Assembly: GCA_900498245.1 (NCBI GenBank)
Contig: LS998015.1
Coordinates: 983,225 to 1,047,224 of the forward strand
DNA: 64,000 bases
Direction of reading: 5' to 3'
DNA from: Candidatus Zixiibacteriota bacterium
GTDB taxonomy: Bacteria; Zixibacteria; MSB-5A5; GN15; PGXB01
Shown here: positions 25,627 to 36,686 of the stretch, piece after piece
How the letters are laid out: each line of letters starts with the position of its first letter
Numbering within the stretch: position 1 is the stretch's first letter
Notes under the pieces: model-generated
What the model was told of the DNA's origin: nothing
Seen by the model: only the letters and a program-made list of their open reading frames with translations
The model's database searches: none
Translations under genes and position numbers: made by a program

Positions 25627-25657
25627 GTTGCAGAAATTTATTATTTGAATCTGCAAC
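25627..25657. promoter_or_regulatory. Inverted repeat between divergent sigma-factor and membrane-protein genes
   Basis: GTTGCAGA and TCTGCAAC form an 8-bp perfect inverted repeat with a 15-nt A/T-rich loop, centred in the 130-bp divergent space. It could be an operator shared by both genes or a 5' leader hairpin of the sigma gene. No promoter is clearly visible. Confidence 0.35.
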
Positions 25658-25698
25658 ATTTGGCCTGTAAAATAAGTCCAATGATTACAGGTAACTCT

Positions 25699-26271
25699 AT
25701 GAACGATAACCGCACCCTTGTCGAAACCATCCTTAAGGGCGATACTGACGCGTTCCGAATTCTGATTCGTGACCATCAAAGGCTGGTGTCTCATATTGTT
25801 TGCCGGATGGTGAAAAACAGGGAAGATGTCGAGGATGTCTGTCAGGAGGTTTTTTTGAAAATTCACCGGAGCCTGAAGGACTTCAAGTTCAATTCGCAAC
25901 TTTCCACCTGGGTGGCGGCTATCGCATTCAATACGGCCGTCTCCCATTTGCAGAAAGGGAAAGGGGAGCCATCGCTTGTGAGTGAAGATGATGCGACTGA
26001 ATCCTCGATGGCTATCTCCGAAGATGCCGGGCCCGACAGATTATCCGAACGAGCCAGCCTCTCAAATTTTTTGCAGGCCGAAATCGACCGTTTGCCGCCG
26101 CTTTTCGGTACCATAATAGCGCTGTTCCATCTTCACGAAATGAGTTATCAGGAAATCGGAAATATCATGAGGTTGCCCGAAGGAACGGTTAAAAGCTATC
26201 TGTTCCGCGGACGGCGCCTTCTCAAGCAAAGATTGACCGCCAGAATCCCGCAGGAGGATTTATGTCTATAA
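25699..26271 (+). CDS. ECF-type RNA polymerase sigma factor
   Basis: The 190-residue protein contains sigma region 2 (DHQRLVSHIVCRMV...DVEDVCQEVFLKI) and region 4 (MSYQEIGNIMRLPEGTVKSYLFRGRRLLKQ). The ATG at 25699 is preferred because AGG precedes it; another ATG at 25681 is possible. The end overlaps the next gene by ten bases, the usual arrangement with its anti-sigma factor, so it likely directs transcription in response to an envelope signal. Confidence 0.92.
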   Translation: MNDNRTLVETILKGDTDAFRILIRDHQRLVSHIVCRMVKNREDVEDVCQEVFLKIHRSLKDFKFNSQLSTWVAAIAFNTAVSHLQKGKGEPSLVSEDDATESSMAISEDAGPDRLSERASLSNFLQAEIDRLPPLFGTIIALFHLHEMSYQEIGNIMRLPEGTVKSYLFRGRRLLKQRLTARIPQEDLCL

Positions 26272-26726
26272 ATCATTTGACCGATGATCAAATTCAGCAA
26301 TTTCTCGATGGTTCTGCCGATATATCGGCCTGTCACCACCTGGAGAATTGTTCCATTTGCCGAGAGCATTTGAAAGTCTATGAGGGTTTATATAACGAAT
26401 TAAAACGTGATACTCCCGTTGAACTCTCGGCTGACTTTCCCCGGAAAATTATGGATATTCTAAATTCCGGCAGCGGCCAAAGCGCGATCAGCTGGATTAC
26501 CGTAGTCCTGTCGCTATTGGGAGTGGCAGGGGCGTTCCTGACGATTTTCTTCTATTATGGAGTTGGTTTCATACGGGGACCGTATGAACAGATTGTCGTA
26601 TCATTTGAGAAGGCGGCCGAGGCTCTCAACAATGGTTTCATTCTGGTCGTGGCGACAGTCCTGATTTTGATTTTTCTGGGGATCCTGGACCGGAATATCG
26701 CCCGGGTCCGACGCCGGATTTTATAA
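26262..26726 (+). CDS. Membrane anti-sigma factor with zinc-finger (zf-HC2) domain
   Basis: The 154-residue protein has an N-terminal H26-x3-C30-x2-C33 motif (HLENCSIC), the anti-sigma zinc-binding domain, followed by two membrane helices (about 72-95 and 125-145). It overlaps the preceding ECF sigma gene by ten bases and should hold that sigma factor at the membrane. The short periplasmic loop between the helices suggests sensing within the membrane or through a partner. Confidence 0.85.
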   Translation: MSINHLTDDQIQQFLDGSADISACHHLENCSICREHLKVYEGLYNELKRDTPVELSADFPRKIMDILNSGSGQSAISWITVVLSLLGVAGAFLTIFFYYGVGFIRGPYEQIVVSFEKAAEALNNGFILVVATVLILIFLGILDRNIARVRRRIL

Positions 26727-26809
26727 TATTTCCCTAACTGAAAAAAACCGTTTGCCTTTATCTTCTTCAGGATAATACTTTGCCATGTGCCTTTTGGACA
26801 GTGAGATAA

Positions 26810-27904
26810 ATGAAAAAGTATTGGATTCCTGCCGCCATCTTTATCGCTTTCGCCGGCCTTTATATAGGCTATTCGGCATATAAAAATACCCGCTTTCTTT
26901 ATCGCCCGGTCTGGGATGTGGCCCAGTATGTCGATATTTCGGAGCGCGGTTATGACGCCCATCCGTGCACGCCCACCGATTACCCGCCGGGAAGGATTTG
27001 CGGTAATGTCGGCTGGTACCCACTCTGGCCCCTCTTGATCGCGGCCTTCCGGCCGCTGGCGGGAGGATCATCGCAATCCGCCTACCTGATACTCTCTTTT
27101 TTATTTTCGTTCCTTGGCCTGATCTTTCTTTTTCGCTTCATGGACCGCAAATTCGGGACGATCCCGGCAACTTTGACTCTGGCATCGCTCGTTCTCGGGC
27201 CGGCGTCGTTTTATTTCCTGTCCGGATTTCCGTACGCCCTGATATTGTTCCTGTTCTCGTTCTATATGATATTGCTTTATTTCGTAAAGGGGCCGACTCG
27301 GGAAATTGGTCTATTTTTCACGGCTCTGGCCATATCATTAAGTTATCCATCGGCCATGCTGTTTGCTATAATTCCGGCGGTTCTGCAAATCTCTGATGGC
27401 AAACCTTTGGTGCGAAATCTAAGAGACTACCATTTCTGGCTCAAACTGGCCAAATTTACCATCCCGTTTATCCTTGGGCCCCTCCTTTTGTGGAGCTATT
27501 TCTATTTTCGCTTTGACGATTTTTTCCTGCAACTCCATTTTCAGGAGAAATATCATCGAACGGCCGAAATCCCTTTTGTCACAATTTTCAAGAGTTTGAC
27601 CCGCTATCCGATTTTCAGTCCCGAAAATGGCGTAATCTTATGGTATGGACTGATCCTGCTTCTCTTTATTCCTTACGGGATTGGGGCGGAATTGTGGCTT
27701 ACGGCCATCGTTCTATACCTTTTTTCGCTGTCCACCGGGACCACCCTTTCGATTTACCGCCACTATCTTATTATTTTTCCGGCTTATATGATTATCGGGG
27801 CATCCCGGCGCCCTCTCTGGTTCAGGATTCTCTTCATATTGCTTGGACTGCTTCTGGCCGTCCTAATCATGTTTCCGGGATTCATTTCCAACCGCCTTAT
27901 TTGA
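26810..27904 (+). CDS. GT-C family glycosyltransferase (PIG-V-like)
   Basis: The 364-residue polytopic protein has about nine membrane segments. The first periplasmic loop carries WDVAQYVDISERGYDAHP, the acidic W-D-x-x-x-Y motif of PIG-V and related polyprenyl-phosphate-sugar-dependent mannosyltransferases, followed by GWYPLWPLL. It would transfer a sugar on the outer face of the inner membrane; donor and acceptor unknown. It lies 84 bp downstream of the sigma/anti-sigma pair and may be in their operon. Confidence 0.75.
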   Translation: MKKYWIPAAIFIAFAGLYIGYSAYKNTRFLYRPVWDVAQYVDISERGYDAHPCTPTDYPPGRICGNVGWYPLWPLLIAAFRPLAGGSSQSAYLILSFLFSFLGLIFLFRFMDRKFGTIPATLTLASLVLGPASFYFLSGFPYALILFLFSFYMILLYFVKGPTREIGLFFTALAISLSYPSAMLFAIIPAVLQISDGKPLVRNLRDYHFWLKLAKFTIPFILGPLLLWSYFYFRFDDFFLQLHFQEKYHRTAEIPFVTIFKSLTRYPIFSPENGVILWYGLILLLFIPYGIGAELWLTAIVLYLFSLSTGTTLSIYRHYLIIFPAYMIIGASRRPLWFRILFILLGLLLAVLIMFPGFISNRLI

Positions 27905-28002: not shown

Positions 28003-28056
28003 AATTAACCAATACATAATTATGATTTTGCCCGGTACCCGATGAAAGGACAAAAT

Positions 28057-30378
28057 ATGAAAAAAGCATTATTGTTTATTATTCCGATTATATTACTACT
28101 GAACATTTCCTTGTACCCGTCAACAGCGCCCAGAACCTTCCAGATCGGTTATTTTGAAGGCGGCCCCTACTTTTTCCATAAACTTCTTCTGAGCGATATC
28201 AAAAAATATCTCGATTTGAGAAATTCCGACAGCCTGAATATCCAGTTCTATCCGGATGGGTATTTTTCGGCCGCATGGGATCGGGTAAAATGCCGGAAGA
28301 TGGCCCACGACATATCCTCCCGTAAAGATATCGATATCATCCTTGCCGCCGGTCCCTGGGTGGTGGAGGATTTACTGGACGCCGGATGCAAGATTCCCAT
28401 TTATGCAATCTACCAATTCGATCCCGAAGTCACCGGCCTGGTCGACAGCACCGGCAAACCGAAAACCAAAAATCTGGCGGTCCTTATCCGTCCCAATAAA
28501 GTGAAATCCGATCTGGCCGTGATGGAGCGGCTGTTTCCTCAACGGAAATTGGGTTTTCTCTATTTCCCGTCCGGCGATGAATTCGTGCGAATGAAAGAAA
28601 AATTTTATAATGAGGCCGGTGCCGCGATCTTTGCAGGTGAAGGGTACAATGATCGCGGCCTTTACAGTTTTTTCCTCGGCCTGAATCAGATCAAGGGTGT
28701 CTCGAACCTGATATACCTGCCGCCCCTCTGGGGAATGGACCTGGACCAGATTCGTCAGTTCTTCTATGAAACCCAAAATGCCAAAATGCCGACCTTTGTT
28801 TATGATGGCTATTTCCTGCTGGAAAAGGACGCCACGGCCGGAAATACCCTGAAACCGTATCAGGGCATGGCCCGGCTGATCGCCGATAATATTGTCAAAA
28901 TTAGAAACGGCGCCGCGCCGGATACGCTGCCGAATAAACTGGATGATGTTGAAGATCTGTGCCTCAATCTTGAAGCCGGCCATAAAATCGGGGTGACTTT
29001 TCTCCGCAAGGACATTCTCGATGCCAAGGTAATTCCGATCCAGGCCGGTGACACCTTGAATACTTATACTTTGCCTCAGGCCCTGGAGCAGGCCCTCCGG
29101 GAAAATGCCGGACGGCTGGCATCGGAGCAAATTTATAGTGCGGCGGAGGCGGCCGCGCGGAACGCCTATGTCAATTATTATCCCGAATTCGGAGTGTCGG
29201 TATCGTCGGCGCAGACCGATGAAGGGGCGCTGGCCTCCAAATATAATAATGATCTTAATCAAAAATTTCGGACGGCGGTCGCCCTAGATCAAACCATTTT
29301 TTCCTATCCGGTCATAAAGGCGATTCAAATCGCCCGGAAAAGACTGGGTCAGGAAAAATTGACCCGTCAGCAGGCTGAATTCGATTTGCGCCAGGCCGTA
29401 ATCACGGCCTACCTCGGCGTCATTGAAGGCGAGGAAAAGGAAGCGACGCTGTATGATATTGTCGATCGCCTTAGAGATATGCGCGATGAAGTCGATGCCG
29501 GAGTCCGCATCGGCGATAACGACAAAGATGATCTCCCGCTTCTGGAGGAACGGCTGGTCGAAGCCAAAATTAACCTTTTCGACGCGCACCGCGATCTAAT
29601 CGTGGCCCGGGCCGTTTTCAATTGCCTGGTCAACCGTCCCGGCAATTACGATTTCCTCCTTGATCGAAGTGAATTCAATCCTGATGTTATGGCCGGAATG
29701 GTCCACAAATACGATGAATATATCGCGGATGCCAATAAAGAGAAAAAATTGACGCAGTATCTGGTTGATATCGGTATTGAAAATGACCGGGGACTGCAGT
29801 TCTCGGATCTGTCGGCGGATATCCAGCGCGACCTAATCGCCCGAAGCAAATGGTCGTTCCTGCCCGACCTGCACCTGCGTGCCGGCTACATAAACGAACG
29901 TGAATTCAGTCCGGCCGTAAGTGATGACCACGACTACTGGACGTTCGGCGGGATTCTCAATTTCCCTCTTTTCGGAAACAAGAAGTCGCCGGGCACCAAG
30001 TCGCTTCAGGTGGAGATGGAGGCGATGATGTATCGGAAAGATTCCCTGCGGCTGAAGCGGATGGAAACGGTTGTCGCCGGCACTCAGGAATTCATTGCCC
30101 GCATGACCACCCTCCCGCTTAATTATTTTTCCCGCAATATGTCCCTCACCACTTTGGAAACGGCCCGGGATCGATATCTATCGGGGAAGATATCGGTCTT
30201 TGATCTGTTAGCGGTCGAGAATCGTAATTCGACTCTATCGCTTCGCACACTCGACGATCGATTCAGTTTCTTTCGGGCTTATGTAGATTTGCTGGGAACT
30301 CTGGGAGTCGGATACTTGAAACACGGCACATCCGAGGAAACAGCCTTTTATAAAGCTCTTGAAGATTATCTGAGGTAG
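28057..30378 (+). CDS. Fusion of ABC-type substrate-binding-like domain and TolC-like outer-membrane efflux domain
   Basis: A 773-residue exported protein; the ATG at 28057 follows AAGGAC and the signal peptide (KKALLFIIPIILLLN). Mature residues to about 340 resemble the periplasmic substrate-binding fold of the ABC_sub_bind (PF04392-like) group: ILAAGPWVVEDLL, IPIYAIYQFDPEVTG and NLIYLPPLWG. From about 350 the protein reads as an outer membrane efflux protein: TYTLPQALEQALRENA, QAVITAYLGVIEGEE, long coiled-coil helices and the closing DRYLSGKISVFDLLAVE. One polypeptide would thus join a ligand-binding lobe to a TolC-type duct. No inner-membrane pump or adaptor gene is adjacent. Confidence 0.8.
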   Translation: MKKALLFIIPIILLLNISLYPSTAPRTFQIGYFEGGPYFFHKLLLSDIKKYLDLRNSDSLNIQFYPDGYFSAAWDRVKCRKMAHDISSRKDIDIILAAGPWVVEDLLDAGCKIPIYAIYQFDPEVTGLVDSTGKPKTKNLAVLIRPNKVKSDLAVMERLFPQRKLGFLYFPSGDEFVRMKEKFYNEAGAAIFAGEGYNDRGLYSFFLGLNQIKGVSNLIYLPPLWGMDLDQIRQFFYETQNAKMPTFVYDGYFLLEKDATAGNTLKPYQGMARLIADNIVKIRNGAAPDTLPNKLDDVEDLCLNLEAGHKIGVTFLRKDILDAKVIPIQAGDTLNTYTLPQALEQALRENAGRLASEQIYSAAEAAARNAYVNYYPEFGVSVSSAQTDEGALASKYNNDLNQKFRTAVALDQTIFSYPVIKAIQIARKRLGQEKLTRQQAEFDLRQAVITAYLGVIEGEEKEATLYDIVDRLRDMRDEVDAGVRIGDNDKDDLPLLEERLVEAKINLFDAHRDLIVARAVFNCLVNRPGNYDFLLDRSEFNPDVMAGMVHKYDEYIADANKEKKLTQYLVDIGIENDRGLQFSDLSADIQRDLIARSKWSFLPDLHLRAGYINEREFSPAVSDDHDYWTFGGILNFPLFGNKKSPGTKSLQVEMEAMMYRKDSLRLKRMETVVAGTQEFIARMTTLPLNYFSRNMSLTTLETARDRYLSGKISVFDLLAVENRNSTLSLRTLDDRFSFFRAYVDLLGTLGVGYLKHGTSEETAFYKALEDYLR

Positions 30379-30466: not shown

Positions 30467-31885
30467 TTACCATTCTGTCTTAATATTGGCAAACGACGTC
30501 TTATTGTCGCGCCAAATGAAGAAGACCACTTCTTTCGGCTTTTTCTCGGCAATTTTCTCGAATATGCTCTTAGCATCTTCGATTGAGGTCACTTTTTTCC
30601 CGTCAATCGCCTGAATAATATCTCCGGGCATGATTTCCCCCACCGCGGCCCAGCCGCCCGGTTCCAGTTCCTTTACCACCACCCCCTTGAACTGCCTTCG
30701 GTCGAGGTTATTGAGATTATAATCGGCGAAAACCATATTGCGAACGGTAAGATCGAAATTGGTATCTTTGTAGTGGGGAGCCTCGGAAGGCGAGAGCGGC
30801 GCCGCCGATAGAATTACAGCCAGATTAAGGGTATCAATAGTACCGTCACGGCGGCGCAAAACTTCAAAGTCGGTCTTGGCCCCGGCTCCCAGTTCCGCGA
30901 TCTGGCGCTGGAAAATCGGCAAATTCTCATCCTTATTTATGCCGATATCTTTCCCGTTGACTTTTATCATGATATCGCCCGTCTTAAATCCGGCGGAGTC
31001 GGCGGGGGAGTCCTTGGCGACTTCGTTGATTATGATTCCCCCCCGGCTGTTCAGGCCCCAGTAGTCGGCCAGATCAGTGGTCAGAACCTGCATATAGATT
31101 CCCAGCCAGCCCCGGTTGATCTCTCCCTTTTTGGGCGGGTTGGCGATCAATTTCTCCAACTTATCCGGCTGAAGGACCCCGAGAAGCGGAAGCGTCTGTT
31201 GTGCCTGCGACATCGACTGCATCATCTGTCCCGATTCGAGGCCGGACCCTTCGCCGCTCATTTCGCCCAGGACACCCACGGCATTGCCCAGAGAATCGTA
31301 AAGCACCGATGTCATTTCCAGATCATTAAAGCCGACTGTCAACGCAAAATTCTCCGGGACTTTGATGAGCGAGGCCACCATGCCGACATCGGCGGCCAGC
31401 GACGGCTCAATATATTCGGGCATTAGAACATAGACGGCGAGCCATTCGCCGACCTGGAAATCGTCCCGCTTCTTAAAATTGACGAATTTGAATTCCTTCT
31501 TTTTATCGGAATTTATCTTGCAGAAACCGATATGGGTGTAACGGTCGGTTCCGATATATTCGGCCGGATACTTAGTCCCGTCCATCATGACAATCTCAAT
31601 ACTTTTCGGCTTGGTATCGATCTGCATTCCGGACATCAGCGAAAAAGGTGACTCGCCGTCCAGAGCCAATCCGTCAAATATCACGAGGCCGTCTTTGGAA
31701 ACGATCGTTCCGATGGTCCTGTCCTGGGTTTCGATCGACTGCATACCCATGGAGATCGAAATGGTCATATTGACCGCGACCGTATATTCACGGGCCCTGC
31801 TGTCGAGTTTGGAAAAGTCAAAACTGAGGCTCCAGGCGTTGACAGCAATCAAAATCACGGCCAGAGCGAGTATATATTTTTTCAC
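30467..31885 (-). CDS. HtrA-like pseudoprotease with two PDZ domains
   Basis: The 472-residue exported protein starts at GTG behind AAGGAGT (signal peptide ILALAVILIAVNAWS). It keeps the two-barrel plus two-PDZ layout of its upstream neighbour, but the catalytic His, Asp and Ser of S1C proteases are gone. Where the neighbour has NSGGPLVDLNGKVVG, this one has VLYDSLGNAVG. PDZ1 is around RGWLGIYM...SPADSAGFKTGDI, PDZ2 around GGWAAVGEIMPGDIIQAIDG. Five bases after the active htrA stop, so co-expressed; probably a scaffold, chaperone or regulator of the active protease. Confidence 0.8.
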   Translation of the reverse strand: MKKYILALAVILIAVNAWSLSFDFSKLDSRAREYTVAVNMTISISMGMQSIETQDRTIGTIVSKDGLVIFDGLALDGESPFSLMSGMQIDTKPKSIEIVMMDGTKYPAEYIGTDRYTHIGFCKINSDKKKEFKFVNFKKRDDFQVGEWLAVYVLMPEYIEPSLAADVGMVASLIKVPENFALTVGFNDLEMTSVLYDSLGNAVGVLGEMSGEGSGLESGQMMQSMSQAQQTLPLLGVLQPDKLEKLIANPPKKGEINRGWLGIYMQVLTTDLADYWGLNSRGGIIINEVAKDSPADSAGFKTGDIMIKVNGKDIGINKDENLPIFQRQIAELGAGAKTDFEVLRRRDGTIDTLNLAVILSAAPLSPSEAPHYKDTNFDLTVRNMVFADYNLNNLDRRQFKGVVVKELEPGGWAAVGEIMPGDIIQAIDGKKVTSIEDAKSIFEKIAEKKPKEVVFFIWRDNKTSFANIKTEW

Positions 31886-31889
31886 GTCG

Positions 31890-33266
31890 TTACTCCTTAA
31901 TATTCTCGGCATCGCTTTTATCGTTTTCGATCTTGAGCAGAATGAATTTTGTACTGCCGAATCTCTTGACAGTCAGAAGAACCCGATTGGCCGCGGCGGT
32001 CGTCAGCTCCGTATAGCGATCATAAAATTCCTTGAAAGTGGTCACCGGCCGCTCGTCAATTTCCCGAATCACGTCGCCCGGCAGAAGACCGCCGTCGCCG
32101 GCCGCGCCGACTTTCTGGACACCGGAGACATAGACGCCGATAGTATCCTCCAATTGATTGTCCACCGCCATCTGCTTGGTGATCCCCTTCACTGTGAAAC
32201 CCCAATCCTTGCACTCCAGATCTTCGCCCAGGACATCCCCGAGTTCGTGGGTGATAAGTTGGATCGCTTCGGTGGAATCGCCGCGCTGGACGGTCAGGGT
32301 CAGTTTGGACCCGGCCGGATAGTCGGCGATCAATTTATAAAAGGCCGGCAATTCCTCCGCGAAACGGGCCGAGACCGGCTTGCCATCGACTTTAAGAATG
32401 ATATCTCCGGCTTTGAGACCGGCCGAATCGGCGGGAGATTGGGGATCAATCGATGATATCAGCACCCCTTGGTTGCGATTAGTGCGGAACCATCCTTCCA
32501 GATCCTGCAGTTCCTGGCACTGCACGCCGATCCAGCTTCGTACCACCCGCCCCTTGGTTAAAATGGAACTGGTTACATATTTGACAATATTAATCGGTAT
32601 GGCAAAGCCGATATTGTTAGCGAACAGCGTGGCGCGGGAATTGATACCGACCACTTTGCCGTTCAAATCGACCAGCGGCCCGCCGGAATTCCCCGGATTT
32701 ATGGCGGCATCGGTCTGAATCCAGTTGTTATACATCCCGGTTTTTTCACCCGACGGCAAACGGACGTCTCCGGCGAAGAAGCGATCCGTGGTTGAAATCA
32801 CCCCGCAAGAAACGGAACGGGAAAGCGCCAGAGGGGAGCCCATGGCAAGGACATACTGCCCCACCTGAACCGAATCCGAATTCCCGAATTCGGCCACATT
32901 CAACGTGCCCTTGTAATCAGTCAGGTCGAGTTTTATGACGGCGATATCGGTCATCGGGTCGCCTCCGACCAACTGGGCCTTGACCTGCTCTCTATCGTAC
33001 AGCGTACAGATAATCCGTTCCGCCTTTCCGGCGACATGATAATTTGTCACTACATAGCCGTCTTTCTGGAAAATGACTCCTGAACCGACCACCGATTGCT
33101 TGATCATTTTGCCGGTGCGGTAATCGGTAATGACCGGCTGGATATGAACCAGGGCCGGCAAAACCTTATTGCGGGCGAAATATATGGCTTCCTGAAGGGG
33201 CGGGACCGCGGCCGCCATGACTGCCGTCTGCATCGTCAGGAGCAAAACCAGAAGTATTTTTTTCAT
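31890..33266 (-). CDS. HtrA/DegP-family periplasmic serine protease
   Basis: The 458-residue protein has a signal peptide and an S1C protease domain with H77 (TNYHVAG), D107 (MTDIAVIKL) and S194 (GNSGGPL), followed by two PDZ domains (SPADSAGLKAGDI and GLLPGDVIREID). It degrades or refolds damaged envelope proteins. GAGGTG precedes the ATG. It forms an operon with the catalytically dead paralogue downstream. I leave the symbol blank because degP/degQ/degS cannot be told apart here. Confidence 0.92.
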   Translation of the reverse strand: MKKILLVLLLTMQTAVMAAAVPPLQEAIYFARNKVLPALVHIQPVITDYRTGKMIKQSVVGSGVIFQKDGYVVTNYHVAGKAERIICTLYDREQVKAQLVGGDPMTDIAVIKLDLTDYKGTLNVAEFGNSDSVQVGQYVLAMGSPLALSRSVSCGVISTTDRFFAGDVRLPSGEKTGMYNNWIQTDAAINPGNSGGPLVDLNGKVVGINSRATLFANNIGFAIPINIVKYVTSSILTKGRVVRSWIGVQCQELQDLEGWFRTNRNQGVLISSIDPQSPADSAGLKAGDIILKVDGKPVSARFAEELPAFYKLIADYPAGSKLTLTVQRGDSTEAIQLITHELGDVLGEDLECKDWGFTVKGITKQMAVDNQLEDTIGVYVSGVQKVGAAGDGGLLPGDVIREIDERPVTTFKEFYDRYTELTTAAANRVLLTVKRFGSTKFILLKIENDKSDAENIKE

Positions 33267-33454: not shown

Positions 33455-34309
33455 CTAATCGACCCAGATAATTTCTACCGAGCCCATACCAACGTCGATT
33501 TTCAAGTCCAGACCGATCTTTGATTCCCGAAAATCTTTAGACTCGAAATAATTGTCCTCAACTTCAAATCGATCGCGATTACGGAACTTGACGGTGGAAA
33601 GGAAATTATCCTCGGCCTCGATTCTGACCGGTAGATTCGACGGGATATAAATTAGGGCCTTGCCCAGTCCGATGGAAACACGGGCCCTGGAGCGGACTCT
33701 ATAATCGCCGGAAAAGTCGAGTCGGAATTTCCCCACGCCGCCATCAAATGAAAGGCGGCTAAAATTCAGATTTCCCAGTTTCTCGGCCTCGAAACTGGCC
33801 GCTCCGGCATCCAGGATAACATCATCGGCCGTATCCGGGTTGGCGGTACTAATTTTAAGTGTCCCGTCGGCGGCGCCCAAATCAAGTTTCAAGTAAGTTA
33901 TCGGGACCCCACCCAACTCAATATCGGTTTCACACAGCCCGATATCGAAAGTCAATTCCGAAGGGTATCTGCGGGACAGGCCCACCTCCCAGATATTATC
34001 CTCGCTTTCGACATGCATCTTATTCAGCAAATCCGAACCGACATCCAGCCGTCCCACGGAGCCCCTTTTCTTGTATTCAGCAAATACCTCAACATTGCGG
34101 CTGTCGTATTCAACGTCGGCTTCAAGTATACCGACCGTATCTTTTGGCATAAAAATAAATTTTCCCGCTCCCAGGTCAAAATTGGCGATCAGCGTTTTGA
34201 TATCATCGCCCGGATACGAAAAATGCCTTTTTTCGATATCGCCGGCCCAAGCCATTCTTCCGCAAATCAGGACCGCTAACAAAAAAAGGGGAAATATTGT
34301 CTTTCGCAT
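33455..34309 (-). CDS. LiaF/toastrack-like exported protein
   Basis: The 284-residue protein has a signal peptide (PLFLLAVLICGRMAWA) and a mature part of regular beta strands: repeated blocks such as FDLGAGKFIF, LDLGAADGTLKIS, LSFDGGVGKFRLDF and a closing IGLGKALIYIPSNLPVRIE. This matches the beta-solenoid 'toastrack' domain of LiaF C-termini and DUF4097/DUF2154 proteins, which take part in cell-envelope stress responses. GGAGGT precedes the ATG. Last gene of the ECF operon; a terminator follows. Confidence 0.75.
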   Translation of the reverse strand: MRKTIFPLFLLAVLICGRMAWAGDIEKRHFSYPGDDIKTLIANFDLGAGKFIFMPKDTVGILEADVEYDSRNVEVFAEYKKRGSVGRLDVGSDLLNKMHVESEDNIWEVGLSRRYPSELTFDIGLCETDIELGGVPITYLKLDLGAADGTLKISTANPDTADDVILDAGAASFEAEKLGNLNFSRLSFDGGVGKFRLDFSGDYRVRSRARVSIGLGKALIYIPSNLPVRIEAEDNFLSTVKFRNRDRFEVEDNYFESKDFRESKIGLDLKIDVGMGSVEIIWVD

Positions 34310-34327
34310 TTTTAGACCTCCGATATT

Positions 34328-35611
34328 TTATCGATCGCCTTCCGGCTTTAGTGGGGGTGGTGTCGGCGGGGGAGGAGGAGTTGGTGGGGGGGGAGGTGTC
34401 GGTGGCGGCGGGTAGGACTCAAAAGTCATGGTCACCGTCATCGATCCTTTGCATTCCCGCGTTCCGAAACGAGTCAACAAAATCGCTCCGAGGCCGGCCG
34501 TAATAGCCAGCGACCAGATTACAATTGCCAGGACCAGGAAAAAGGTGCTGAAGGCGCCGCTGGCTCCCGACGGGGTAATTCTGAATAGCGCCATGATTAC
34601 CCAGGGGGAATAAAGGACGGCTCCGCCGAGGAGCGCCTGGAACAGGGAGGAACTGAGATTCCCCGAAATGTGCCGGCTGACCTTTTCACCCACCAGTTGT
34701 CCCGATGCCACCGCACCAAGTATGACGGCCAGAAGAAGGGCCAGCGGCAGAATAAATATCGCAATCGGGATTCCGACGATGGTCAAACAGAGAAGGGCAA
34801 AGGCCGGGGCAAAAAGGATCCAGATGGCAAAACCGACGAAAAACACCTTGACCGGATGAAGTTCCATACAGTTTCTGATTTTGGCCAGTGGTTTGGGGAC
34901 GATAGCGGCCGCCAGGAAACTGCAGAACAGCAGGATGAACAAAAGAATGAGATTTACGATCAAAGCCGTGTATGACGATTCCTGGAAAATTTCGATTTGA
35001 GGAATATCGGGGACATCAGTTTCAATCCGCTCCCCGCCGATGATACCGCCCCTCATTTTTACTATTTCCGGGGCGCGGGCGTCGCCGGTAATTTCACCGG
35101 TTGAAGTTACGGTGATTCTCTTGTATGATACAACGTCACCGTCGACAAGACCCTTGACCGTGATCGGCCCCATGGCCATCAGAGAGCCGGATACTTTTTC
35201 GTTTTCCCCCACCTCCACGGAGCCAAACTGGAGGCCGCGGAACCGCCGCATCGTCGTATAAATGATTTTCCGAAGCGAATCTTTCTCTTTTTGAAGCGCC
35301 ATCGCCTCTTCGATTAGCGAATCGGTATCGGGGATGGCAGGTATCTCGATGCGCCGTGCCGATTCCGGTCCCCCCAGAACAAATATGTCTCGGCTGAAAT
35401 CGTATTCCCAGTCTTTGCCGTCTTTATCGATCCCGTACACCCCGTCGGACGACAGATGCAGTTCTTTGAATAAAGTATCCTTTTTGGAGGAATCGCGGCC
35501 AGGGCTTTTCATGGTCGCCGTCGTACTCCCCGCCAGGATCGCCGGCGCGGAAGAAATTATTATACTGACCGCCAGAAAGGCCGGAATCATGTATTTCAAT
35601 TTTGAATACAT
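34328..35611 (-). CDS. Membrane protein with polymer-forming (bactofilin-like) domain and poly-proline tail
   Basis: The 427-residue protein has a signal peptide (1-27), a soluble part with a short beta-helical stretch (VGENEKVSGSLMAMGPITVKG then GDVVSYKRITVTSTGEITGD, about 145-185) like polymer-forming/bactofilin segments, then four to five membrane helices (about 215-390). It ends in a tail of three P5T-type repeats (PPPPTPPPPP). The soluble part would be periplasmic and could bind neighbours through the beta-helix. Located between DUF4097 and LiaF-like genes in the ECF operon. Confidence 0.7.
   Translation of the reverse strand: MYSKLKYMIPAFLAVSIIISSAPAILAGSTTATMKSPGRDSSKKDTLFKELHLSSDGVYGIDKDGKDWEYDFSRDIFVLGGPESARRIEIPAIPDTDSLIEEAMALQKEKDSLRKIIYTTMRRFRGLQFGSVEVGENEKVSGSLMAMGPITVKGLVDGDVVSYKRITVTSTGEITGDARAPEIVKMRGGIIGGERIETDVPDIPQIEIFQESSYTALIVNLILLFILLFCSFLAAAIVPKPLAKIRNCMELHPVKVFFVGFAIWILFAPAFALLCLTIVGIPIAIFILPLALLLAVILGAVASGQLVGEKVSRHISGNLSSSLFQALLGGAVLYSPWVIMALFRITPSGASGAFSTFFLVLAIVIWSLAITAGLGAILLTRFGTRECKGSMTVTMTFESYPPPPTPPPPPTPPPPPTPPPLKPEGDR
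34351..34412 (-). repeat. Coding microsatellite: poly-proline/threonine repeat
   Basis: A run of CCX and ACX codons encodes PPPPTPPPPPTPPPPPTPPP at the end of the membrane protein. The G-rich plus strand (GGGGGTGG-type units) makes copy-number change by slippage likely, so tail length may vary between strains. Confidence 0.7.
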
Positions 35612-35621
35612 TCGTTACCTT

Positions 35622-36686
35622 TCAGAACTTGCCGATCACGATATCACCCGACATCGACATAAGCGATATTTTGGGTCCGCCTTTGCCGAATTCGCCGGTA
35701 AATTTAGTCCGCGATGACACCCTGGCCGTCATATCCAGGCGTGTTTCTATCGCCCCTGAAACAGTCTCTATACGCACCGAGCCGGAGGAAGTTTCCGGGA
35801 CCAAAAAATCGATCGTTCCCGAAGTCGTTTCGACGTAATACTCCTTCCGGGAATCGAGTTCCGAGCGCACCCGAACCGTCCCGGATTGCGTGATAATATC
35901 GATGGCGCCGGATTCCTGCTGAATATTGATATCGCCCGAAATTGATTTAATGCGGACATCACCGTTCATGCCATTGAGAGTCACATCTCCCGATGTTTCC
36001 GAAATGGTAATTGGTCCCCTGATATCATCGGCCCGGGTCTCGCCGGAAGTGGTATGGATGTCGATAATGCCGTCGATAACCGACAGGCGGGCCTCCGAAC
36101 TGGTGGCCGAAATGCTGACATCGCCTTTAATGTTATCCAATTCAATTTCGCCCGATACCGTTTCGACATCAATCAGCCCCGTTATATCCTGAAGTCTCAT
36201 TCCGCCCGAAGTGGTCGAAATATATGTGGACGATTTGGTTCCCGTAACGAAGACTTCGCCCGAGACATTATCGATTTCGGTGCGGCAATCGTACGGCACC
36301 GTGATAGTGTAATCGACATCACCGTATGAGTCCTCGCCGCTCCCGAACAATCTTTCCCAGAGGGAGCGGGAGCCAGGTCCCCCTTTCAGATAATTGGTTT
36401 CGACCGTAACTTGATGATCGGTTCGGGATACCCTGATTTCGATGCGGTCGGCGATTTTTTCGGCCTCTTCGGCATCGACAGCCCGCACATTTTTCACGGC
36501 GTTTATGGTTACTTTGTCGACGGCGGCGGCGGCAATCTCGATCCGCCCCGAGATATTGCTTACGGATAATTCGGCCCGGTTGCCGGTTTCGATATTTTTC
36601 TCAAACTCAAAACGATATGCTTTGCCCATGGCTGACGAGCCGGCCACCGATAAGAGAATCAAACTGCAGGCGATTGCTTTTTTCAT
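35622..36686 (-). CDS. DUF4097 beta-solenoid (toastrack) protein, exported
   Basis: The 354-residue protein has a signal peptide (KKAIACSLILLSVAGSSAMG) and at least nine repeats of about 20 residues with the core V-x-T-x-S-G-x-I (VSGEIELDN, TSGETRADD, ISGDINIQQ, QSGTVRVRS, TSGTIDFLV, VSGAIETRL, MSGDIVIG). This is the DUF4097 toastrack fold, often encoded beside sigma/anti-sigma genes and proposed to form surface or periplasmic scaffolds. It directly follows the ECF sigma gene in place of a conventional anti-sigma factor. Confidence 0.85.
   Translation of the reverse strand: MKKAIACSLILLSVAGSSAMGKAYRFEFEKNIETGNRAELSVSNISGRIEIAAAAVDKVTINAVKNVRAVDAEEAEKIADRIEIRVSRTDHQVTVETNYLKGGPGSRSLWERLFGSGEDSYGDVDYTITVPYDCRTEIDNVSGEVFVTGTKSSTYISTTSGGMRLQDITGLIDVETVSGEIELDNIKGDVSISATSSEARLSVIDGIIDIHTTSGETRADDIRGPITISETSGDVTLNGMNGDVRIKSISGDINIQQESGAIDIITQSGTVRVRSELDSRKEYYVETTSGTIDFLVPETSSGSVRIETVSGAIETRLDMTARVSSRTKFTGEFGKGGPKISLMSMSGDIVIGKF

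Follow-up and report, generated by a model that had tools for sequence, protein, structure and literature searches.

A single open reading frame in a Candidatus Zixiibacteriota genome encodes a substrate-binding protein (SBP) domain joined covalently to a TolC-type outer-membrane factor (OMF), and this SBP–OMF fusion is real and old. It was found in what we call the window, the whole stretch of 64,000 nucleotides that was analysed. Both halves belong to known families, and their combination seems to be undescribed: the parts of the literature covered by our search contained no description of a fusion of PF04392 with OEP. Relatives of the fusion lie within drug-pump operons in three bacterial phyla. 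The best reading of the protein, to which we give slightly less than even chances, is that of an outer-membrane factor with a ligand-sensing collar at its equatorial belt, through which export is tuned. The chief alternative is that the protein serves as a sensor or scaffold in the periplasm, with the TolC-like part as its anchor.

A substrate-binding fold joined to a TolC-type duct

The open frame runs through both halves, and its features are collected in Table 1. We favour a start at 28057 over the start of the longer open reading frame at 28042, because the sequence AAAGGAC lies just 5' of 28057. In the predicted structure, the N-terminal helix is followed by residues of low confidence (18–22). 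A simple lipobox pattern search found no lipobox cysteine, as in OprM/CusC-type proteins, at the N terminus of the window protein; the pattern was matched by three rows of the relatives searched (L038, L095 and L053).

Table 1. Features of the fusion gene, its upstream neighbour and two shortened relatives (window positions unless a locus is given).
Feature	Position	Strand	Basis or remark
Whole fusion gene, SBP–OMF type I, 773 aa	28057..30378	+	Open reading frame, Pfam, orthologues, AlphaFold2, start context
Probable Sec signal peptide, about residues 1–25	28057..28131	+	Hydrophobic N terminus; predicted helix 2–17; putative cleavage site
Class I substrate-binding domain (SBP), PF04392 type, residues 26–327	28132..29037	+	Fold Z score and profile E value
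Trp74, present in 34/34 orthologues counted	28276..28278	+	Orthologue conservation count
Gly99-Pro100-Trp101, 34/34 orthologues; aligns with the A-T-P loop of aromatic-amino-acid SBPs	28351..28359	+	Alignment, conservation count
Trp225, 82% of 34; aligns with the Asp of the D-N pair of aromatic-amino-acid SBPs	28729..28731	+	Alignment, conservation count
Short linker, about residues 328–336, about 10 residues	29038..29064	+	Gap between the two structure-aligned ranges
TolC-type outer-membrane factor (OMF), residues 337–757, OEP repeats	29065..30327	+	Z score to TolC; PF02321
First predicted outer-membrane β-hairpin, strands 377–386 and 402–415	29185..29301	+	AlphaFold2 model
First long helix and coiled-coil hairpin, residues 417–524	29305..29628	+	Model and TolC alignment
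Second predicted outer-membrane β-hairpin, strands 604–616 and 623–635	29866..29961	+	AlphaFold2 model
Second long helix and coiled-coil hairpin, residues 647–749	29995..30303	+	Model and TolC alignment
Membrane protein directly upstream, no Pfam or NCBIfam match	26810..27904	+	10/10 same-family loci
Hairpin-less SBP–OMF relatives	L085 7584–9443; L086 8278–10128		SBP and coiled-coil helices kept

A preliminary description of this DNA, made from its letters, had proposed an ABC_sub_bind-type domain at the N terminus and an outer-membrane efflux duct in the rest of the protein, and domain searches of both halves bear this out. The window protein matched OEP (PF02321) in two stretches with an E value of 2e-24 (86.9 bits, cut-off 22). 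Its match to ABC_sub_bind (PF04392) was at E 0.0014 with 18.4 bits, which is below the Pfam cut-off of 25.9; many orthologues exceed that cut-off, and among 35 relatives including the window protein, OEP was found in all 35 and ABC_sub_bind in 34, at E values up to 0.01 with a best value of 2.9e-22. A profile of the SBP half matched the solved SBPs 3lkv (1.5e-21), 6hni (1.6e-17) and 3lft (8.7e-16), and a profile of the whole protein matched TolC-type proteins, the best at E 2.5e-32. When the single window protein was searched against the PDB, the matches were at chance level only, and its scores stayed under the curated cut-offs of the NCBIfam TolC models (22 bits against 495 for NF007002, and 41.9 against 225.15 for TIGR01844).

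Structure prediction agreed with the profiles. An AlphaFold2 monomer model, computed from 25 sequences, had a mean pLDDT of 87.2 and a pTM of 0.77. Residues 26–327 of the model aligned with VC_1101 (3lkv) with a VIA-align Z score of 27.8 (rmsd 2.8, 289 residues), and the same domain gave Z 26.4 with 3lft and Z 26.3 with 6hni, with 286–289 residues aligned across the three SBPs. Residues 337–757 aligned with E. coli TolC (1ek9) with Z 29.1 (rmsd 4.0, 400 residues); the modelled OMF half has the TolC fold, with four β-strands per chain and long coiled-coil helices. The tip of the first-repeat hairpin appears by eye to have diverged from that of the relatives. The SBP ends about ten residues before the position that aligns with TolC residue 1. 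On the evidence of profiles and the predicted model, the window protein is thus a complete PF04392-type SBP fold joined covalently to a complete TolC-type OMF.

Distribution and conservation

Our survey covered Zixibacteria genomes and a plasmid collection. By our own count from a profile search, 56 of 132 Candidatus Zixiibacteriota genomes encode the fusion in one open reading frame that covers at least 750 of the 784 profile positions. These genomes fall in families f1, f3 and f4, and several more copies are cut by contig ends; in family f2, the profile search gave a full match in none of seven genomes. A search with the single protein matched 49 of 60 genomes, that of the window among them. 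A scan with the single protein through a collection of genome contigs returned no relative, and a second scan of contigs with a closer alignment returned 24 loci, all of which rest on one peptide pattern and therefore carry little information on other phyla. After removal of one row with a run of X (L026), which left 34 of 35 orthologues, the mean pairwise identity was 40% in the SBP half (residues 26–332) and 27% in the duct half (338–773).

That the fusion could be an assembly or annotation artefact, or that the similarity of one half could be due to chance, has next to no probability: the single-protein PF04392 score under the Pfam cut-off speaks for it, whereas the genome is one 3.5 Mb contig, the same fusion recurs in dozens of other genomes and in other phyla, and the PF04392 matches of the relatives and the SBP fold score argue against it. 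An assembly join, which the preliminary description had named as a result that would overturn its reading, is ruled out on these grounds. Public records give the same architecture different names, 'ABC transporter substrate binding protein' in Sulfuricurvum and 'TolC family protein' in Cetobacterium, and this is a warning to annotators who meet it.

Two types of fusion and their operons

The fusions fall into two types. Type I is that of the window; type II comprises more distant fusions from seven Zixibacteria loci, together with those of Sulfuricurvum and Cetobacterium. In all seven Zixibacteria type II loci, genes for an adaptor and an RND pump follow the fusion gene, with one of the RND genes cut by a contig end; in Pfam searches, each of the seven adaptors matched HlyD families, and the identity of one RND was confirmed. 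The fusion of Sulfuricurvum kujiense, from the plasmid collection, is 31.5% identical to a type II query over 92% of that query, exceeds the cut-offs of both OEP and ABC_sub_bind, and is followed by genes for an HlyD adaptor, an ABC ATPase-permease and an ABC permease. Cetobacterium somerae encodes TolC-type proteins of 726 residues followed by adaptor and RND genes, and the third of the three Cetobacterium records examined shows this gene order too, with a TolC-type gene of about that length. The N halves of these proteins had no Pfam match in the two that were scanned. A two-sequence profile of them matched the SBP profile with 90.7% probability (E 1.3e-6), a comparison in which alignment A7 also serves; A7 holds four type I rows, and a very strong match with it is therefore not independent. 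With moderate confidence, we regard the Cetobacterium N halves as shortened SBPs.

Type I loci are organized differently. Local HMM profiles found an adaptor or RND gene in none of 39 type I loci, 25 of which extend at least 4 kb on both sides, so that a more distant pump is possible in the rest; when run on control loci in the genome of the window, these profiles recovered 11 adaptors and three RNDs. The earlier remark that no adaptor or pump gene adjoins the fusion is therefore correct here, but the sister type does have them.

Trees of both halves recovered the two types. In careful trees, which contained 19 of the 38 type I rows, no hairpin-less rows and narrow outgroups, the duct half supported type I at 100/98 (bootstrap/SH-aLRT) and type II with Sulfuricurvum and Cetobacterium at 99/98, and set all fusions apart from seven stand-alone OMFs of the window's genome at 96/92. 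The SBP half supported type I at 100/98 and type II with Sulfuricurvum at 100/99, and placed the fusions together at 96/89, apart from 15 stand-alone SBPs and a Nitratidesulfovibrio SBP. An earlier, quick tree of the duct half had the same split with only 56% support. The first trees omitted L029, L051, L026, L092, L093, L096, L097 and L100; the first SBP tree included only the first 15 stand-alone SBPs, and the first duct tree was built without the two hairpin-less rows. Because the trees of both halves share the same deep split, there was probably a single fusion event before types I and II separated, an origin that is supported, not proven, given the narrow outgroups.

Genomic neighbours of type I fusions

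In many type I loci, a single-domain response regulator or a membrane protein is encoded upstream. The membrane protein directly upstream of the window's fusion (Table 1) is a possible partner; relatives have a response regulator gene, divergent ABC transporter genes or other genes in this place. We rejected a fixed genomic partner for type I, as the upstream neighbours differ between families. In the window, this region (25645–27904) encodes an ECF-type sigma factor, a short membrane protein, which may be its anti-sigma factor, and the unmatched membrane protein.

Pfam recognized no ABC importer permease or ATPase among the fusion and seven neighbouring open reading frames of the window. Several relatives have divergent pairs of ABC transporter genes in which the membrane and ATPase parts are fused. 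Exporter-like ABC genes, mostly paired, lie less than 1 kb upstream of the type I fusion (2.7 kb in L034) in nine of the 39 loci (L034, L037, L038, L044, L045, L047, L049, L050 and L051), and a functional link of these genes to the fusion is possible.

Besides the fusion, the duct profile found seven stand-alone OMFs in the window's genome, each with an adaptor gene nearby. Two adaptor–RND pairs of this genome have no adjacent OMF, with RND genes at 546689 and 3393995. The former has close homologues (at least 80% identity over the listed match) in two other genomes; the distribution of homologues of the latter is patchy and includes families without type I. A dedicated RND partner for type I was rejected, since neither orphan pair tracks the fusion through the 129 genomes examined for each. 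It is possible that the type I fusion is a shared duct.

Downstream of the fusion, the window encodes two adjoining HtrA-like genes (30467–33266), one of which combines a trypsin-like domain with two PDZ stretches and one of which has only PDZ-type matches over the Pfam cut-off; members of this HtrA-like cluster lie directly downstream of the fusion, convergent with it, in six of the 39 loci. Three further adjoining genes (33455–36686) encode a protein with a weak LiaF-like/toast_rack match, a bactofilin-like protein with a proline-rich tail and one more protein, and their order is retained in several relatives of the same family. A gene similar to alanine racemase/D-serine dehydratase lies downstream of the fusion in L085, with a Pfam match, and in L086, L044 and L050. 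A PF04392 family search of the window's genome, which did not flag the fusion itself, returned one protein, encoded near 790505 (L100, 4857–7540) and followed by genes for a membrane protein of 550 residues and response-regulator-like proteins. No RNA elements or tRNAs were found in the window.

Relatives without outer-membrane hairpins

Two genomes of one genus but different species, G030 and G089, encode proteins in which nothing but the segments aligned with the coiled-coil helices follows the SBP. Both outer-membrane β-hairpin regions are missing, and the frames remain open over 619 and 616 residues. Identity between these proteins is 48.7% over the SBP and 37.4% over the remainder, their gaps fall at matching places and they group together in the SBP tree (SH-aLRT 86); a third genome of the genus (L094) retains the full form. 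Because G030 and G089 lack both hairpin regions, the SBP has been kept where the usual pore cannot form, which suggests, on the sequences of these proteins, that the SBP and helices can act without a normal pore, at least in these two species. No other evidence weighs as heavily as this loss against a reading of the protein as purely an efflux duct, and it argues against any role that always needs a pore.

The binding site

Solved members of PF04392 bind phenylalanine, tryptophan and tyrosine (PMC6816091). In the alignment, the A-T-P loop of these SBPs is replaced by G-P-W in type I, and the aspartate of their D-N pair by W225. Glu263 of CD0873, which contacts the tyrosine hydroxyl, aligns with D250 of the window protein and with a glutamate in the profile consensus. 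The conserved motifs would face the binding cleft, where the pocket is likely to differ from that of the aromatic-amino-acid binders and is possibly larger or lined with aromatic residues. As the motifs on the cleft side have changed in the fusion, its ligand should not be taken to be a free aromatic amino acid, and binding of such a compound in the manner of the solved members is improbable. The lobe that the preliminary description called 'sugar- or amino-acid-type' is refined to a PF04392 class I fold, the solved members of which bind aromatic amino acids.

A possible ligand-sensing collar and its alternatives

By alignment and model, the SBP is attached just before TolC residue 1, at helix H1. 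Helices H1 and H5 are part of the equatorial belt in the middle of the helical barrel, and the belt affects function and adaptor pairing (PMC8277102). We favour a ligand-sensing collar because the SBP joins the duct at this belt and because YbjP sets a precedent at the belt of TolC. In a trimer of the fusion, three SBPs would lie in the periplasm and encircle the duct like a collar at its equatorial belt. Ligand binding would open or close the SBP, this movement would alter duct opening or adaptor docking, and small molecules of the periplasm would thereby tune export. E. coli TolC is common to several pumps, and a type I duct, if it still exports, would have to borrow adaptors and pumps that are encoded elsewhere. 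The two complete folds, the higher conservation of the SBP half, the TolC-type helical hairpins kept in both repeats, the pump operons of the sister type and the agreement between the trees of the two halves speak for the collar, as does the fact that the stand-alone OMFs of the window's genome lie near adaptors and the fusion does not. Against it stand the type I loci devoid of adaptor and RND genes, the orphan RNDs that are not tied to the fusion, the hairpin-less species and the seemingly diverged first-repeat hairpin tip of the window protein. The 'ligand-controlled efflux' proposed earlier is plausible, because the sister fusions head adaptor–pump operons.

The main rival, which we consider rather unlikely, places the function in the SBP and the periplasmic helices, for sensing or scaffolding, and makes the TolC half mainly an outer-membrane anchor that is no longer an export duct. 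It would account for the stronger conservation of the SBP, for the open frames of G030 and G089 after loss of both hairpin regions, for the lack of adaptor and RND genes at type I loci and for the response regulator or membrane protein upstream of many of them. However, the entire duct, including its β-strands, is kept in 56 of the 132 genomes, and the upstream neighbours vary by family and include no constant signalling partner.

It is improbable that the SBP is only a structural collar that binds no ligand and anchors or spaces the duct in the manner of YbjP. YbjP does sit at the same belt of TolC (PMC13095208), and the N half of the Cetobacterium proteins is shortened and degenerate, but residues G99, P100, W101 and W74, expected on the side of the cleft, are present in 34 of 34 type I proteins, which would be unexpected for a mere spacer.

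Still less probable is the 'capture-and-export device' of the preliminary description, in which a periplasmic substrate captured by the SBP is handed on to the duct or pump and exported. The covalent link and the place of type II fusions in pump operons fit such a device, but the SBP joins the duct outside the helical barrel, at the equatorial belt, whereas cargo enters by the periplasmic mouth; the substrate gates of pumps are far from this attachment site. The linker of only about ten residues, and the shortening of the N half in Cetobacterium while the pump operon was kept, also argue against it.

A tentative and somewhat doubtful proposal is that an export duct senses a specific small molecule through a built-in equatorial domain, and that in one genus this domain has become a ligand-responsive periplasmic part without a barrel. 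The known controls of tripartite pumps work through gene expression, the pump or the adaptor. A ligand-binding domain borne by the duct would bring a chemical signal to bear directly at the exit. As a natural series for testing this, the family provides fused ducts with pumps, the orphan duct with its highly conserved binding half, the relative with a shortened SBP and the two hairpin-less relatives.

Comparison with known systems

The OMF half resembles TolC and other OEP proteins (E. coli TolC, 1ek9) in its two OEP repeats, two β-hairpins and two long helices with coiled-coil hairpins; the fusion differs in its additional N-terminal SBP of about 300 residues and in having no adaptor or pump gene nearby. 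The N-terminal domain shares the class I SBP fold with the PF04392 proteins VC_1101 (3lkv), SP1069 (3lft) and CD0873 (6hni), but it is not a free protein, being fused to a duct, and it carries the G-P-W and Trp225 replacements. Type II fusions have the same domain order as type I and form its sister clade in the trees of both halves, but their genes are accompanied by those for an adaptor and for a pump of RND or ABC type, and they lack the G-P-W motif.

A stand-alone SBP encoded on a Nitratidesulfovibrio vulgaris plasmid (DVUL_RS15115) scored 105.7 bits with the type I SBP profile, compared with 18–39 for the stand-alone SBPs of Zixibacteria, and has G-T-W at the position of the type I G-P-W; the next gene encodes an MFS transporter. 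The MFS protein of this plasmid locus (L106, 5827–10015) has 987 residues, the first 560 or so without a Pfam match.

YbjP offers a parallel in position. It attaches to the equatorial domain of E. coli TolC in a 3:3 complex and is not released on opening of the duct (PMC13095208). It is a small domain at the equatorial belt, three per trimer, which is the place that we propose for the SBP of the fusion; YbjP, however, is a separate lipoprotein, whereas the domain of the fusion is covalently attached and has an SBP fold.
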